DNA of 64,000 bases from Druceiella hillmani (taxonomy: Eukaryota; Arthropoda; Insecta; Lepidoptera; Hepialidae): contig JAYKKI010000095.1 in assembly GCA_039881145.1 (NCBI GenBank), positions 6,190,501 through 6,254,500 of the forward strand. Reading direction: 5' to 3'. Below the pieces are notes generated by a model. That model was not told the origin of the DNA. It did not search any database and saw only the letters and a list, made by a program, of their open reading frames with translations. Every line of letters starts with the position of its first letter. The stretch's first letter is position 1. The translations under genes and the position numbers were made by a program. Of the stretch, positions 9,741 to 47,084 are shown in pieces.

Positions 9741-9838
9741 AAGCGATGCATGTCACTTTAGTAAAGAGTGAGAAAAACAATAACCAAGAATATCGATTGT
9801 ACTTGACCAATAAGAGCGAAGCTGAAAAAACACAATTG

Positions 9839-10040
9839 CCCACAATTAAATGAAACTACGTGATGTAGTATTATTTCTACTTTCTTTATGTTCTTTACCA
9901 CGATCTAGGTTTCGTTGTATTACGAAAGATGCAAATTTTATTTTGAAAGTAATATCTCCAAGGTCAACCTTTATATGTATTTTGGAAAATATTACGGTTA
10001 TACTATATACAACATTAACGCCAAATATATTCAATACTTG
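9839..10040 (-). mobile_element. Chimeric copy of the hammerhead-like fold-back element
   Basis: Left part (9839-9932) is the element's left arm on the minus strand: cacaattaaatg, the actacgtgatgtag stem-loop, ccacgatctagg and ttcgttgtattac. The ribozyme-like core is cut inside stem II. The middle, about 85 bases, is unrelated sequence. The right end returns to the element terminus aacgccaaatatattca. Direct repeats aaaacacaattg at 9827-9838 and 10041-10052 flank the whole unit. This fits one insertion that was rearranged afterwards, or was templated by a mixed transcript. Confidence 0.7.
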
Positions 10041-10052
10041 AAAACACAATTG

Positions 10053-12087
10053 TCTAGGGCTGTCACATCATTGGCATAATATTTAATTGTCAATTTATGT
10101 CCTGTGCATTTTAATGTTAATTACATTTATGTTATAATTAAATATATTACGAATAAACCGAAATTTAATTGCAAAGCAACTAGTATTTTTTCAAATATCG
10201 TTTTAAGCAGGAATGAAAAATAATGGAATGGTGCTCTCACATATAATTATTTCCTTTAATTATAGAATAAGTTTTATATAAAATGTAAAATAGTCACTCT
10301 TTTTTTCTCTTCTAAAATTTTAAAAATATCTGTTGTTACTTTTTTTAAATGCCTGTACTTTCCCATGAGTATTTTATTTTTTGAATCCTTTAGTCGGTCC
10401 AAGTTCGGCCTTTGTATTTTGTTCTTAAGTTTTTTGGAGTATCTTGAATAATCAAGGATTGAAGAAGTAGAAGTTGATGGCTGTTAAAAAGATTCATACT
10501 GTAAACTAAAAAAAAATAGTCGAAATTAATATAAGCTACACTTGGTATTTTTTCCAACAAACATATAAAGTTTGACCTTGAAGACATAAGTAATGTCTCC
10601 AATGTCTCTCAAATTAAAATTTGCGTCTGTTTACATGAGTATTGTAATTTTTAAAATGTACGTATAATACCAAATAAGCCTATAAAAATTATATAATAGA
10701 ATAATGCTTATGTAATTAGGGTAATTTGTCGGTATTTCTAAATCTGTTCAATAAAGGTATAACCTTAATATTTACACCAAAATAGATAATATATAGCTTA
10801 ATAAACATAACACACATGCAAATAGAATAATTTCAAAAATTTATTAATTTAAAATTAATTATAGCAAAAAATTGCGATCTTTTTGGTTTACGGCAAAATT
10901 AGGTTAAAATTAAATATTTAGTTACTTATACGTCTGAAGCCTAGACAAGCTGAACATTCATTTGATATACACATTGAATATTTTAAGCAAATTTTGATAT
11001 TTTATTTCAAAGCAACTTTGACATATATTTATAAATATCATTTAATAAATAGACTCCATATATCCGGAGTATAAAATAATAATGGCCTATAAAGGTATAT
11101 TAGTCGGGTCGGTTCAAATAATTACAGTCATGTTAAAATTATGCATGAGATTTATAAAAATTATAACTAATCTTACGCAATATACGAACAGAATCATCTC
11201 TTAATAATCTCAAGCCTTTTTTGGTATTGTAAAACGCCTCTTTCAAAAAATGTTCAGAATGAATTCGCATGTCTTTGATTGGTAACCAATTAGATCTATT
11301 TTATCGCAACAGTCCTTTTGTTTTTCCTTCACACATCCACAGAGAATCTGTAGATATAACAATTGCTTTAGCTTTAAAAAATTGAAATAAATGCTATAAA
11401 ATTAATCAAATATGACTGAATAAAAATAAAAATATAGGGTAAAAGCTGATTGTAAGTTATTGAGAGGGTATCTTATTTTCGAATTAAGCTAGTGGTAGCC
11501 CTAAAGAAGAGGCAAAACAATATATTCTATTTATCAATGCATTTATATTATAGCAAGCAACGTCATCCTGCTGGAAGAAATAATTGTGATTTTAAAAACC
11601 TTCAAATAGTGACTTACCTATGGAACGTGATTCCATGAGAACCTTTATGAATTATTCTTGAATTGCTATTGCAGCTAATGGTAAGGCAATTTGCTATTTA
11701 TGTAACTCAAAACTCAGGTTTTTATAAATAAAACGGGAGATGTAGCATGTCTAAGCGCCAATATTGTACTGGCGGCGAAGTGGCGATTGACGTATCGAGT
11801 GTGTTCAAAATGTGTACGCTGGGTGCCAAAACTGGATACACGTTCACACTTTGTATAGCGTCTCCCTTTCATTCTATCCTCCTTGGTCACAACATATCAG
11901 TTTCTACAGTTTTAGATATTTATGTTTTTCAACCTGCATCCGTCCCCTCTCCGACATAGGTCTAATCTTTAATTTTTCATATGAGTATATCTTGAGCACC
12001 GGTGAAGCGGAATATTACTTATGCCGCAAAGGTCTGGATCTTGACCGCCAACTCGAAAGTTTGTGTTGGCGCTTAAGATCTAGGTTT
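10053..12087. other. AT-rich DNA without a gene
   Basis: Mostly featureless. A GC-richer patch at 11745-11960 carries two overlapping short frames of 70 and 92 codons. Neither shows a domain, signal peptide or family motif, and both start within simple sequence, so I do not call them genes. Confidence 0.5.
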
Positions 12088-28235: not shown

Positions 28236-28600
28236 TCTCTTCTTGAGTCTGTGTTCTTCACTGCTGCGGATAATGGCTCTTGTTTTAGTATATTCAACCA
28301 TTATTTCCTATTCTTATTGTTGTGTAGGGTATCATGTACCAAGGGTTTCTCGGATCTGGTTCTTCCAAGATCTAGATAGGGCAGTGCCCCTTATACTCTG
28401 TCCTTCAACGACAATGGGCTTCTCAATGCTGTCGGTAAGTTTTCGGATAATGTGTCTAAAGTATTTCAGAACTCTCCGTAGATATATGATGGATAACCTT
28501 GTTGAAAACAGTTGGCCATCCGAGCTCTTTCTGAATCGGGGCCTTGGTTCTGTACTCAGTCCGTGAGATATTCTTCCAGCAGGACGTTTCAAAGGAAAAT
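28236..28600 (-). pseudogene. LINE reverse transcriptase C-terminal relic
   Basis: Minus-strand translation from about 28592 reads through 86 codons. It contains the segment T-R-L-S-I-I-Y-L-R-R-V-L-K-Y-F-R-H-I-I-R-K and then I-V-V-E-G-Q and W-K-N-Q-I. That pattern (RL..., ILKYFGHI, IVEG, W.DQI) is the well-known C-terminal region of insect non-LTR retrotransposon endonuclease/reverse transcriptases. After a stop at about 28332 the homology continues one frame over (V-H-D-T-L-H-N-N-K-N-R-K), giving one frameshift, and then another stop. The RT and endonuclease domains are absent. It is a 5'-truncated, inactive copy. Confidence 0.75.
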
Positions 28601-28895
28601 ATTATAATTAATAACTGAACATACTTTCAAAAAGTCAGTCTAAATAAATAGTTAACAAAAATTAAAGTTCCATTTAAACAAGTTCCAACAATTACATTAA
28701 ACATAGGTATTATCTATAATTTTATAAGTTAGAAATCGTAAAATTTAAATAGATGGATAAATTAAAAAAGAAACTGCCTTAGAAATTAAACTCATAAATT
28801 AATTTGCATTAAAATCCTCATAAAATACTAAAACATCTATAAAAAGTTAAAAATTAATCGTTTAGATAAATTACGTCTATAGATAATATAGTCTT
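28601..28895. other. AT-rich DNA, nothing recognised
   Basis: No feature supported. Confidence 0.5.
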
Positions 28896-34781: not shown

Positions 34782-35010
34782 ATTAGTGTTAAAGCGTTTA
34801 GTGATAGGCGTCACTGGACCGTTGACGTGTCTAATCACGTTTTATGACCAGTTTTTGTATATTAATTATTCCGGCGTAATGGATCGGCACTCTCTTTTAT
34901 TTAATGAAACAATTTATCTTTGCCTTCTTTCTCGTTTCCTTCAAATGTTTATAACAATCGAACACAAGTTTTTTAATAAAGTATTAAAATATAAAAATAT
35001 ATATTTTAAT
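34782..35010. other. AT-rich DNA, nothing recognised
   Basis: A 77-codon frame (34786-35019) starts from a non-ATG codon and shows no domain. Confidence 0.45.
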
Positions 35011-35287
35011 CACAATTAAATGAAACTACGTGATGTAGTGTTATTTCTACTTTCTTTAAGTTCTTTACCACGACCTAGGTTTCGTTGTATTACAACTCTT
35101 CAGGTGGGCTATTAGCAAGGATTAAAGGGCTATTAGCAATCTTTGCTAATAGCCCACCTGAAGATGTTGTAATGAACAACCAAACTTAGGTCGTGGTAAA
35201 GAACTTAAAGAAAGTAGAAATAATACTACATCACATTTAATTGTGAATAATGAATTTTTACAAAATTAACGCCAAATATATTCAATT
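35011..35287. mobile_element. Palindromic hammerhead-like element, copy 2
   Basis: Two arms of about 100 bp lie in inverted orientation around a centre containing gggctattagcaa twice directly and once inverted. From centre outward each arm reads: cccacctgaaga, stem II, gaaac, cctaggtcgtgg, then aaagaacttaaagaaag, a stem-loop of the actacatcacgtagt type and aattgtg. The right end extends into aacgccaaatatattca. An 11-bp direct repeat, tatattttaat, borders it at 35000-35010 and 35288-35298. The left arm keeps an intact ribozyme-like core; the right arm's core is mutated (gaacaaccaaac). Confidence 0.8.
35068..35107 (-). ncRNA. Type I hammerhead ribozyme candidate (canonical core)
   Basis: Minus strand, 5' to 3': CCAC (stem I), CTGAAGA, GTTGT-AAT-ACAAC (stem II, five perfect pairs), GAAA, CCTAGGTC, GTGG (stem I, pairs with CCAC). 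The conserved CUGANGA and GAAA boxes and a GUC triplet are all exact and correctly ordered. Stem III would be A-C-C pairing with G-G-U across a 2-base loop. Because ACCTAGGT is self-complementary, two molecules could form a good stem III together, as known for Penelope-like and retrozyme hammerheads. Cleavage is predicted between 35072 and 35071. Stem I loop contacts cannot be judged. Confidence 0.6.
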
Positions 35288-35493
35288 TATATTTTAATAT
35301 TTTTGAAATGTTAAGGTTAATTAACAATATAACTAATTTTCTGATAGTCAAATTGAAATATACTTGTGACAATAATTATAATTAAATAAAAATACGTAAA
35401 AACATATTTGATGAAATGTTTGCTACATAAAGAATAACTTCTAGTAAACCAAATAAAAATTGCGGTATGACTACTAAACTAATATAACTAAAG

Positions 35494-35547
<54 letters not shown>

Positions 35548-36537
35548 ATAAAACTAATATAACTAAAATATTTCAAATGTACAAAATTATAATTACATAA
35601 TTAAAATGTATTTATATATCAATCTAAACTATATTTAAAAATTCAAGATAATGCAAGGGAAAAATAATTTGCATTTAGTATTTTTGTGATGTTCACACAG
35701 TAAAAATGGAGTATAAATTATATGGTGTCAGGAAAATTCCTGATATCAGAATTCAGTTCATTCCAAAGTTTTGCTTGTTGGACAGAAAAGGAAAGTTCTT
35801 GTGGAAAATAGCCGTGCATTCATATCATAACATATTTTATTCCTATCGCTCGAATGATAATAATTATTTTTTTAATTTTTAGCTTTAATACTTTTTAATA
35901 CTAACCCGATACCATTTGCCAGTTTAATAAATTTTAATTTAATTTCAGGTGTTTACCTTTCAACGTGCTGAAATATTACGTTGACACTAATAACTGCATC
36001 AGTATTAGCCATTCAGAATATATAGGCTTCTTCCCTAGAGCATGAAGTTGTATTTCTATTGTAGCATGAGAATAATTCTACCAGATAATTCCAACTAAAG
36101 TTAGAGTCTGTATCAAAAATGCTTTTTTAATTTTTCTAAATTGTATATATACTGCCGCTCTGGACACAGATTAACGTGAAGATCAAAATTTACTCCTTTG
36201 AATCTTTAAAATCAATGCTTAGCTGCGTCATAGGAAAGTATACCTTTACCCATCGCTGTGTGTATAAAATACTAAATTCAATTCATGAAGTAAAAGCACT
36301 TCAAAGTGTAGTTCTTGAATCCCCATAACTTTCCTGAAATAGCTGGAAAGAAGTAGTATTAGTTGTCAATCTGATATAATTCTATCTATATTTATAGTTT
36401 CGCGCCGTCTAGTTTTACCGAGACGGAACAAACAGCGATTATGCTGCACCATATTCCTGTTTCGGTAAAGGTTTCATTGTTTCAGTAAAGTCTTGCGTTA
36501 ATAGTTACAAGATGTTAATAGAATATACAAATGTAAA
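35288..36537. other. AT-rich DNA with a (TA)n run at 35496-35542
   Basis: The TA run is flanked on both sides by aaactaatataactaaa, a direct repeat that may mark slippage or a deletion. Nothing else recognised. Confidence 0.55.
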
Positions 36538-36770
36538 ATATATTTAGCGTTAATTTTGTACAAATTCATTATTCACAATTAAATTAAACTACGTGATATA
36601 ATATTGTTACTACTTTCTTTAAGTTCTTTACCACGACCTAGGTTTCTTATTTTAGTCAATCTTTGCTAATAAACCACCTGAAGATGTTGTAATACAACGA
36701 AACCTAGGTCGAAGTAAAGAATTTAAATAAAGTAGAAATAATACTATATAACGTAGTTTCATTTAATTGA
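36538..36770. mobile_element. Palindromic hammerhead-like element, copy 3 (inverted)
   Basis: Orientation is opposite to copies at 35.0 and 46.1 kb: it starts with atatatttagcgttaatt, the complement of their right terminus, and ends cgtagtttcatttaattg. The left arm has lost the inner half of its core after taggtttc. The right arm keeps CTGAAGA (36678), the GTTGT/ACAAC stem, GAAA (36699) and CCTAGGTC, but the stem I 3' strand is GAAG instead of GTGG and cannot pair. No clear target duplication was found. Confidence 0.75.
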
Positions 36771-44357: not shown

Positions 44358-44370
44358 AAAAAATGTTTTC

Positions 44371-44523
44371 AAATATTGAATATATCTGGCGTTAATTTTG
44401 TAGAAATTCATTATTCATAATTAAATGAAACTACGTGATGTAGTATTATTTCTTCTTTCTTTAAGTTCTTAACCACGACCTAGGTTTCGTTGTATTACAA
44501 CATCTTCAGGTCCATTTAACTGT
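44371..44523 (-). mobile_element. Single-arm copy of the hammerhead-like element
   Basis: A 13-bp direct repeat, aaaaaatgttttc, flanks it exactly (44358-44370 and 44524-44536). Inside is one complete arm on the minus strand, from cctgaaga through gaaacctaggtcgtgg, the actacatcacgtagt stem-loop and ttcattta to the terminus aacgcca. So one arm alone can be the inserted unit, and the palindromes at 35.0, 36.5 and 46.1 kb are inverted dimers of it. Core boxes are intact (CTGAAGA 44503-44509, GAAA about 44485-44488), but the stem I 5' strand is GGAC and does not pair with GTGG. Confidence 0.8.
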
Positions 44524-44739
44524 AAAAAATGTTTTCGTATTTCAGTAAGATTGAATCTATTTATTGCTAAGCTATAGCATCTGGATTGCGCTTACAACAC
44601 GATACCTGAACCGATATTGAAGAGTGCACGTTATATTATAAAGAGCAACGAGTACGTCAATGGTTTTTTTTCCTTTCTGACATATAATTTCCCTCCATTC
44701 GAGTATAAGTCACGTCAAATTTGCACCTGTGTAACGCAT

Positions 44740-45540: not shown

Positions 45541-46152
45541 ATTTTAAATTATTAAATATAAAGTTAAATTCGTAAAAACATTTTAGAGAAAGGATTTTAC
45601 CTTCAAGGAAGAACAATTTCTTGGCCATTCTAACATGATGGTAGATAGATAGTGATTTTTACAGCGATCATGGTTACAATACGCTTATATCACTGTTATT
45701 CTAATATTATTATGACACATTAAAAACCATAACATATATATCAAACAAGTTCCAAAGCGAGAAAGAAACGAAAGTTACTTATGTGTTACTTATGTATTTT
45801 ATATAAACTTTTAAAGCATTTTTTACGTAAAAACCGGCAAAATTAAATGTAAAATTGTCAGTTGGTTATTAATTAGTCAACAATTACGCTTATTTTGGTA
45901 TGTAAGTTACTTATACGAAATTTTGAATATCTTATATAAACTTTTAAAGCATTTTTTATATAAAAATCGGCAAAAATAAATGTAAAAACTATCAGTTAGT
46001 TATCAATTAGTTACAAATTACGTTTATTTTGGTATTTAAGTTACTTATATAAAATTTAAAGTATCTTATATGAACTTTTAAAGCATTTTTTTACCCACAA
46101 TTAAATTAAACTACGTGATGTAGTATTATTTCTACTATCTTTAATTTCTTTA

Positions 46153-46193
46153 CCACGACCTAGGTTTCGTTGTATTATAACATCTTCAGGTGG
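46153..46193 (-). ncRNA. Hammerhead-like motif, left arm
   Basis: Minus strand: CCAC, CTGAAGA, one extra T, GTTAT-AAT-ACAAC (one mismatch in stem II), GAAA, CCTAGGTC, GTGG. All catalytic boxes are present. Compared with 35068-35107 it has an added base between the CUGANGA box and stem II, which may lower or abolish activity. Confidence 0.5.
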
Positions 46194-46243
46194 GATATTA
46201 GCAAAGATTATAATCTAAAATAATAGAAATCTTTGCTAATATC

Positions 46244-46284
46244 CCACCTGAAGATGTTGTAATACAACGAAACCTAGGTCGTGG
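46244..46284 (+). ncRNA. Hammerhead-like motif, right arm
   Basis: Plus strand: CCAC (46244-46247), CTGAAGA (46248-46254), extra T, GTTGT-AAT-ACAAC, GAAA (46269-46272), CCTAGGTC (46273-46280), GTGG (46281-46284). Stem II has five perfect pairs and stem I four. Predicted cleavage follows 46280. The self-complementary ACCTAGGT would favour a dimer. Confidence 0.55.
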
Positions 46285-47084
46285 TAAAGAAATTAAAGAT
46301 ATTAGAAATAATACTACATCACGTAGTTTCATTTAATTGTGAAGAATGAATTTCTAAAAAATTAACGCCAAATATATTCAGCATTTTTTTACGTAAATAT
46401 CAGCAAAATTAAATGTAAAAGCTATTAGTTGGCTATCAATTAGTTACAAATTACGCTTATTTTGGTATTTAAGTTACTTATAGAAAATTTAAAGTATCTT
46501 ATATGAACTTTTAAAGCATTTTTTTACGTAAAAATCGGCAAAATTAAATGTAAAAGCTATCAGTTGGCTATCAATTAGTTACAAATTACGCTTATTTTGG
46601 TATTTAAGTTACTTATATAAAATTTAAAGTATCTTATATGAACTTTTAAAGCATTTTTTTACGTAAAAATCGGCAAAATTAAATGTAAAAGCTATTAGTT
46701 GGCTATCAATTAGTTACAAATTACGCTTATTTTGGTATTTAAGTTACTTATATAAAATTTAAAGTATCTTATATGAACTTTTAAAGCATTTTTTTACGTA
46801 AAAATCGGCAAAATTAAATGTAAAAGCTATCAGTTGGCTATCAATTATTTACAAATTACGCTTATTTTGGTATATAAGTTACTTATATAAAATTTAAAGT
46901 ATCTTATATGAACTTTTAAAGCATTTTTTAACTAAAAATCTGCAAAATTAAACGTAAAAACTATCAGTTGGTTATCAATTAGTTACAAATTACGCTTATT
47001 TTGGTATATAAGTTACTTATATAAAATTTAAAATATCTTATATTAACTTTTTAAGCATTTTTTTACGATTTTAAGATTTTCTAA

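Follow-up and report, generated by a model that had tools for sequence, protein, structure and literature searches.

What kind of element forms the palindrome at positions 46095..46379, and how did it come to be there with hammerhead-like boxes in its arms? Within the whole 64-kb stretch of DNA that was analysed (the window), the palindrome is one of five dispersed copies. The reading that we favour, and hold to be reasonably probable, is that these copies are short insertions without an ORF, owed to an enzyme that an unseen Penelope-like element (PLE) supplied in trans, and that their arms carry a predicted minimal type I hammerhead. Support at the level of the sequence comes from common 5' and 3' ends, an inverted arm without a tail, duplications at four of the five copies and an empty site that is still visible.

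The insertion and its relatives

The palindrome itself comprises two arms of 134 nt each (46076-46209 and 46228-46361) that are 91% complementary and separated by 18 nt. The element, referred to here as copy A (46095..46379, plus strand), is a complete insertion of 285 bp consisting of an inverted arm, this short loop of 18 nt, a direct arm and a 38-nt tail, and its bounds are fixed by the flanking target-site duplications AGCATTTTTTTAC that flank comparison places at 46082..46094 and 46380..46392. The direct arm (46228..46341, plus strand) was identified from the palindrome, by blastn and by a profile search. The inverted arm (46096..46209, minus strand) is 97.4% identical to it over 114 bp and is without the tail; the plus strand there is the antisense of the hammerhead. 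The tail (46342..46379, plus strand), recognized by inspection of the sequence and by the profile, was found only after the direct arm. The first-pass annotation had placed a palindromic short element between exactly the ends that the duplications set, and the two arms do lie head to head.

Copy A entered a tandem array with units of approximately 135 bp. Once joined at the 13-bp duplication, its flanks are identical to the adjacent tandem unit in 138 of 143 positions, and the array spacing of 433, less the 298 taken up by copy A and one duplication, leaves 135, or one unit. Because the joined flanks reproduce the neighbouring empty unit and the spacing leaves a single unit, the insertion event is shown directly. 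Tandem arrays are abundant across the window (24 TRF rows with scores of at least 150 between 7726 and 59241, units of 20 to 264 bp, some rows describing the same array). The direct arm also holds a 35-codon open frame (IFANIPPEDVVIQRNLGRGKEIKDIRNNTTSRSFI; 46228-46333, plus strand) that lies in a different frame from the ATG discussed below and is without other support. Matches to miRNA families in a 601-base Rfam scan lay far under their gathering scores and are a consequence of the long hairpin, and identity as a miRNA was rejected.

Eight arms were found in the window by blastn and were grouped into the five dispersed copies, A to E. A profile search recovered the same eight arms, from which it had itself been built, all with an E of 1.6e-29 or better; all other rows had E >1, one of them being the tail of copy E. 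Copy B (35011..35283, plus strand; profile and flank comparison) is a palindromic insertion between 15-bp duplications with one mismatch (34996-35010 and 35284-35298). Its centre (35116-35150) holds a second partial arm end, with GGGCTATTAGC present twice, as though the strand had switched twice. Copy C (36536..36769, minus strand), with ends placed by homology, has a full inverted arm, a direct arm from which the 5' half of the motif is missing, and a tail. Profile and flank comparison likewise delimit copy D (44371..44523, minus strand), in which approximately 11 nt resembling the start of the inverted arm are joined to a direct arm and tail between 13-bp duplications (44524-44536 and 44358-44370), and copy E (9839..10040, plus strand), in which an inverted arm, approximately 86 bp of foreign interior and the end of a tail lie between 12-bp duplications (9827-9838 and 10041-10052). 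When random flank pairs were given the same offset freedom as the real flanks, 6, 4, 2 and 2 of 5000 equalled the duplications of A, B, D and E (13, 15, 13 and 12 bp), respectively. No convincing target-site duplication was found at copy C, whose flanks are equalled by 1785 of the 5000 random pairs.

The interior of copy E (9925-10010) resembles the reverse complement of 10547-10628, approximately 600 bp downstream, with a match of 41 nt at 85% (E 1.6e-8) and two weaker pieces in the region 10530-10800. Because this foreign interior sits inside the duplications, a template jump or capture from the host are both possible origins for it.

The ends of the copies are held in common. All five open with the beginning of the inverted arm, of which copy D has only an approximately 11-nt likeness, and start within a few bases of CACAATTAAAT; all five end at AACGCCAAATATATTC (or a one- or two-base variant) or 7-8 nt past it. 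The tail measures 38 nt in A, B and C and 45 nt in D, and copy E retains only its end. Copies D and E (44364-44377 and 10033-10046) run on as AATA[CT]TTGAAAACA beyond the common 3' end and partly into the duplications, which may reflect a tail of greater length or, alternatively, priming from target bases that have a match in the template. The head-to-head pairing of an inverted and a direct arm is full in A and B and has a shortened direct arm in C, and the inverted arms of all three match the direct arm of copy A up to one common base, 46228. The first-pass annotation had taken the element for a retroelement inserted here as an inverted dimer. With inverted arms recurring in three copies to the same base, the head-to-head palindrome is no accident of this one insertion; the arrangement is that known from PLEs and not that of a retrozyme dimer.

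The palindrome is the most visible feature of the element, recurring in A, B and C (partly deleted), and papers on short inverted-repeat insect elements are common, which together would suit a foldback or MITE DNA transposon, in which the palindrome would be a pair of long terminal inverted repeats mobilized by transposase and the hammerhead-like boxes would be incidental. This reading is highly improbable given the structure of the ends. The extreme ends are not mutual inverted repeats, as 38-45 nt at the 3' end are absent from the 5' end, the duplications are not of one fixed length (12, 13, 13 and 15 bp), and the 3' ends of A and B lie 7-8 nt apart from those of D and E. Neither the inverted repeats at both extreme ends nor the fixed-length duplications of a MITE or foldback element were found.

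Much the same applies to a retrozyme, which would spread via circular RNAs produced from tandem copies by efficient hammerheads and would have landed here as an inverted dimer. The likeness to animal retrozymes, as characterized in portions of PMC7229834, lies in the small size, the lack of coding sequence and the type I hammerhead. Animal repeats of this kind are given there as 150-450 bp, and both the 285 bp of the whole element and the 152 nt of the direct arm plus tail fall in or near that range. However, the animal retrozymes described in these portions are direct tandems with more canonical hammerheads, whereas the five copies within this window are dispersed, none of them (0/5) in direct tandem, and copy A sets two arms in inverted orientation with a tail on one side only. 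The invertebrate retrozymes covered by that source have a closed short stem III, as opposed to an 8-nt self-complement without a loop here, and a monomer derived from a circle does not explain a recurring inverted arm that is consistently without a tail. A retrozyme origin is thus considered very unlikely.

The hammerhead-like motif

The boxes of copy A's direct arm occupy 46244..46284 (plus strand), with a predicted cut at 46280/46281. Stem I and the core begin with CCAC (46244-46247) and CTGAAGA (46248-46254), followed by an extra T (T46255), a 5-bp stem II (GTTGT/ACAAC, 46256-46260/46264-46268) with the loop AAT, and the 3' boxes GAAA (46269-46272), ACCTAGGT (46272-46279), C (46280) and GTGG (46281-46284). 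Stem III, ACCTAGGT, is an 8-nt perfect self-complement without a loop. The order of boxes reported in the first-pass annotation for both arms is present as described in the right arm, but the extra T46255 had gone unmentioned, and the left arm, an inverted copy of the motif, has a mismatch in stem II (GTTAT/ACAAC). Of the six arms that retain the foot of stem II, five have an extra base there; the motif in the inverted arm of copy B (35068..35107, minus strand) has none. The invariant core boxes, stems I and II and the cleavage triplet are all present in two of the eight arms.

Could such boxes have come together by chance in an AT-rich repeat, a possibility compatible with any mechanism of insertion? 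The pattern CTGANGA...GAAAC occurs five times in the window against 0.26 expected, every time in copies A-D. A full descriptor with both stems, the self-complementary stem III, the cleavage triplet and one extra base allowed, written after the motif had been seen, matches the same window twice, or 2/8 arms (46248, plus strand, with one extra base; 35103, minus strand, with none). It has no match in the reversed or complemented window and none in 300 Markov-1 windows searched on both strands. Among 4227 Rfam families, RF00163 (Hammerhead_1) is the best on both of the 53-base stretches tried and in the correct register, with 16.6 bits (E 0.05) over 46242-46286 in the direct arm of copy A and 23.9 bits (E 1.9e-4) in the inverted arm of copy B, the E-values referring to 53 bases that were picked for their motif and scanned alone with laxer filters. 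Both scores lie under the gathering score of 34, no family reaches its gathering threshold across the whole window, and Hammerhead_1 is not among the 16 matches of the 601-base scan up to E 10. The covariance-model search that the first-pass annotation had proposed therefore returns the expected family, but below threshold and from the short stretches only.

The Rfam scores under the gathering level, the absence from larger scans, the extra base beside stem II and the conservation of the motif, not significantly above that of the remaining arm, each speak for chance. In columns with at least four letters, minority letters make up 7/282 within the hammerhead span and 24/484 elsewhere in the arm (p = 0.13), such that the additional conservation of the boxes to which the first-pass annotation had looked was not significant. 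Conservation inside a family of dead copies would say little for or against a function. Generic box-pair patterns, slightly different from the boxes of the family and used as chance controls only, identified 1 + 7 loci in viral_contigs and 12 bacterial or archaeal loci in genome_contigs. In the register with the extra base, none of the 20 has a stem II longer than 3 bp, and in the register without it the length is 0, as compared to 5 bp here. With this difference, the descriptor matches against none in the Markov windows, and RF00163 ranked first in the correct register, a chance resemblance is distinctly unlikely. Exact patterns of the family have no match in viral_contigs or genome_contigs, collections not meant for animal genomes, and a full-text search with four 13-14-base pieces of the motif found no paper.

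Folding of the monomer and dimer, also proposed in the first-pass annotation, gave a divided answer. The minimum-energy fold of the 53-nt monomer is not a hammerhead (-9.9 vs -4.4 kcal/mol for stems I and II alone), but a stem III duplex between two copies is predicted at approximately -11.4 kcal/mol. Where a transcript holds one arm or tandem arms, its motif could dimerize with a second copy by way of the self-complementary ACCUAGGU, and the dimer could then cleave after GUC. This layout is akin to the minimal, dimer-forming PLE hammerheads of Cervera and de la Pena 2014 and Lunse et al. 2017, as cited in a section of PMC7761336, which have the type I order, a minimal stem III and an expected need to dimerize for activity. 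As far as that section describes them, the motif here differs in the 8-nt perfect self-complement of stem III and in its placement within a palindromic element that carries its own antisense.

The RNA of the full palindrome is predicted to fold as a single hairpin at -181.7 kcal/mol and, because the whole element folds in this way, would bury the motif. Locked in a hairpin of >100 bp, such a transcript would more likely be a source of siRNA than a ribozyme. Part of PMC3136932 suggests that Penelope siRNAs in Drosophila virilis derive from long inverted repeats, and by analogy the same fate is plausible for a palindromic transcript of this family. The hammerhead of the Anolis PLE PAc cut only with protein, and its mutants still inserted (PMC11167929), from which it follows that cleavage may not be needed for movement here.

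Coding capacity and the Penelope-like arrangement

The extra T that interrupts the textbook core creates CTGAAG-ATG. This ATG (46254..46256, plus strand) reaches from the final base of CTGAAGA to the first of stem II, a layout recognized from the sequence and by comparison with PAc (PMC11167929), and reads ATG TTG TAA; because TTG TAA follows, no PLE protein can be made from the ATG of the family. Counting from its A, the predicted cut falls 26 nt downstream, and the element ends at +88 on the inverted arm and at +126 on the tail, 38 nt apart. The remainder of the window offers no candidate for the enzyme among the frames scanned. Stop-to-stop ORFs reach at most 141 aa. Of the 61 ORFs in the window that measure at least 75 aa, 10 were scanned; none of these matched an RT or GIY-YIG family, and two weak matches to other families were below the cut-off. 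A single ORF with a telomerase-like RT and a GIY-YIG endonuclease, as in an autonomous PLE, was not found in the window. A fragment on the minus strand at 28335-28601, which we take to be LINE-like, has no homologue at E 0.001, and a tRNA search of the window found none.

The traits of a PLE derivative are nonetheless present in the head-to-head arms, the one-sided 3' tail of approximately 30-40 nt and the duplications of variable length. Passages of PMC3846280 describe a PLE of Adineta vaga in which an inverted pLTR lies head to head with a direct pLTR and is 37 bp shorter than full ones, with a 31-bp tail and duplications of 8, 9 and 10 bp. The same passages interpret junction palindromes as self-priming and report solo pLTRs as well as pLTRs that are sufficient in trans, carrying unrelated sequence. 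As in Pen2a_Av of A. vaga, so far as these passages describe it, the inverted arm of copy A is head to head with the direct arm and shorter by about the length of the tail; a tail of 30-40 nt and short duplications at AT-rich sites are shared with Penelope/Poseidon-type PLEs as represented by Pen2a_Av and PAc (PMC3846280, in the same passages; PMC11167929). In PAc, a minimal type I hammerhead likewise lies over the ATG with a cut about 26 nt past it, though the counting convention behind '26 bp' may differ. The parallel with PLEs is one of anatomy, drawn from the layout, and on this basis we infer that each arm is a PLE pLTR.

Unlike Pen2a_Av, as covered by those passages, or PAc, the element has no RT/GIY-YIG ORF behind its ATG TTG TAA, its arms are joined almost directly and it totals only 285 bp. 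Its duplications are 12-15 bp, compared to the 8-10 bp given for the Adineta PLE in the excerpts of PMC3846280. PAc initiates reverse transcription at an internal point of its RNA that lies 111-118 bp into the ORF and in an AC-rich stem loop, and it requires template RNA to +172 (PMC11167929), whereas the tail here is AT-rich and the copies end at approximately +126 to +134. Solo copies may for these reasons not be templates.

This shortfall, with copies stopping before the +172 that PAc required, also bears on the possibility that there is no separate short family, and that each copy is instead a severely 5'-truncated insertion of an autonomous PLE, a solo pLTR with a tail, in which the inverted arm was made on the spot. 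Solo pLTRs are known from the portion of PMC3846280 drawn on above, and the arms of A and B are closer within a copy (distances of 0.026 and 0.031, respectively) than between copies (lowest 0.043). Random truncation would not, however, have led the inverted arms of A, B and C to the same base or set five starts within a few nucleotides. The spacer CTAAAATAA, compared by eye, is common to A and C, and the profile search found no copy longer than the short form within 64 kb. Truncation of an autonomous PLE is consequently a possibility to be taken seriously, if a doubtful one. In preferring a short family moved in trans, we retain the core of the first-pass annotation, namely a non-autonomous retroelement insertion whose boxes follow a minimal type I layout and whose stem III is self-complementary. 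This core is upheld by the presence of duplications, a tail and an inverted arm, and by RF00163 ranking first on two 53-base stretches.

Origin of the palindrome and its implications

The palindrome probably originated by copy-back during reverse transcription. In this scheme, a PLE-type GIY-YIG endonuclease/reverse transcriptase acting in trans would nick AT-rich DNA, and cDNA synthesis would start inside the template, approximately +126 nt past the ATG, generating the tail before the arm is copied. Having reached the 5' end of the pseudo-LTR used as template, the cDNA would fold back or jump strand to produce the inverted arm to approximately +88. In favour of copy-back, the arms of A and B are each closest to their partner within the copy, and a single common base marks the limit of the inverted arms in A, B and C. 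Against it, the informative sites are few, with four of five columns grouping the arms by copy and one conflicting, and of all 28 arm pairs the most distant is that of copy C (0.134 over 67 columns). Gene conversion between arms would give the same pattern as copy-back. The foreign interior of copy E, lying inside its duplications, fits with a jump of the template.

A more elaborate version would make the family a self-propagating ORF-less satellite of PLEs, with the palindrome rebuilt by copy-back at each round and full insertions carrying both the hammerhead and its antisense, switching between a dimeric ribozyme in single-arm RNA and an siRNA-feeding hairpin in palindromic RNA. We regard this version as unlikely.

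It should be noted that the hammerheads, tails and inverted pLTRs of PLEs are already known, as are Penelope elements that are short and non-autonomous. The last of these are described for heliconiine butterflies in part of PMC6685494, and the copies here can be likened to them as short, non-autonomous derivatives by description and not by sequence; the main text of that paper has no occurrence of 'hammerhead' or 'palindrom'. No title matching an ORF-less palindromic PLE with a hammerhead was found in a literature that leaves out most subscription papers.

Both the origin of inverted pLTRs and the reason for PLE hammerheads are standing questions, and the in vivo activity and role of the latter are 'still a mystery' according to a passage of a review (PMC7761336). 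The minimal unit of arms, tail and motif, whose empty site can be seen in the adjacent tandem unit, narrows down what the enzyme may require in cis, and the 285-bp element provides a substrate for testing copy-back synthesis and dimeric cleavage.
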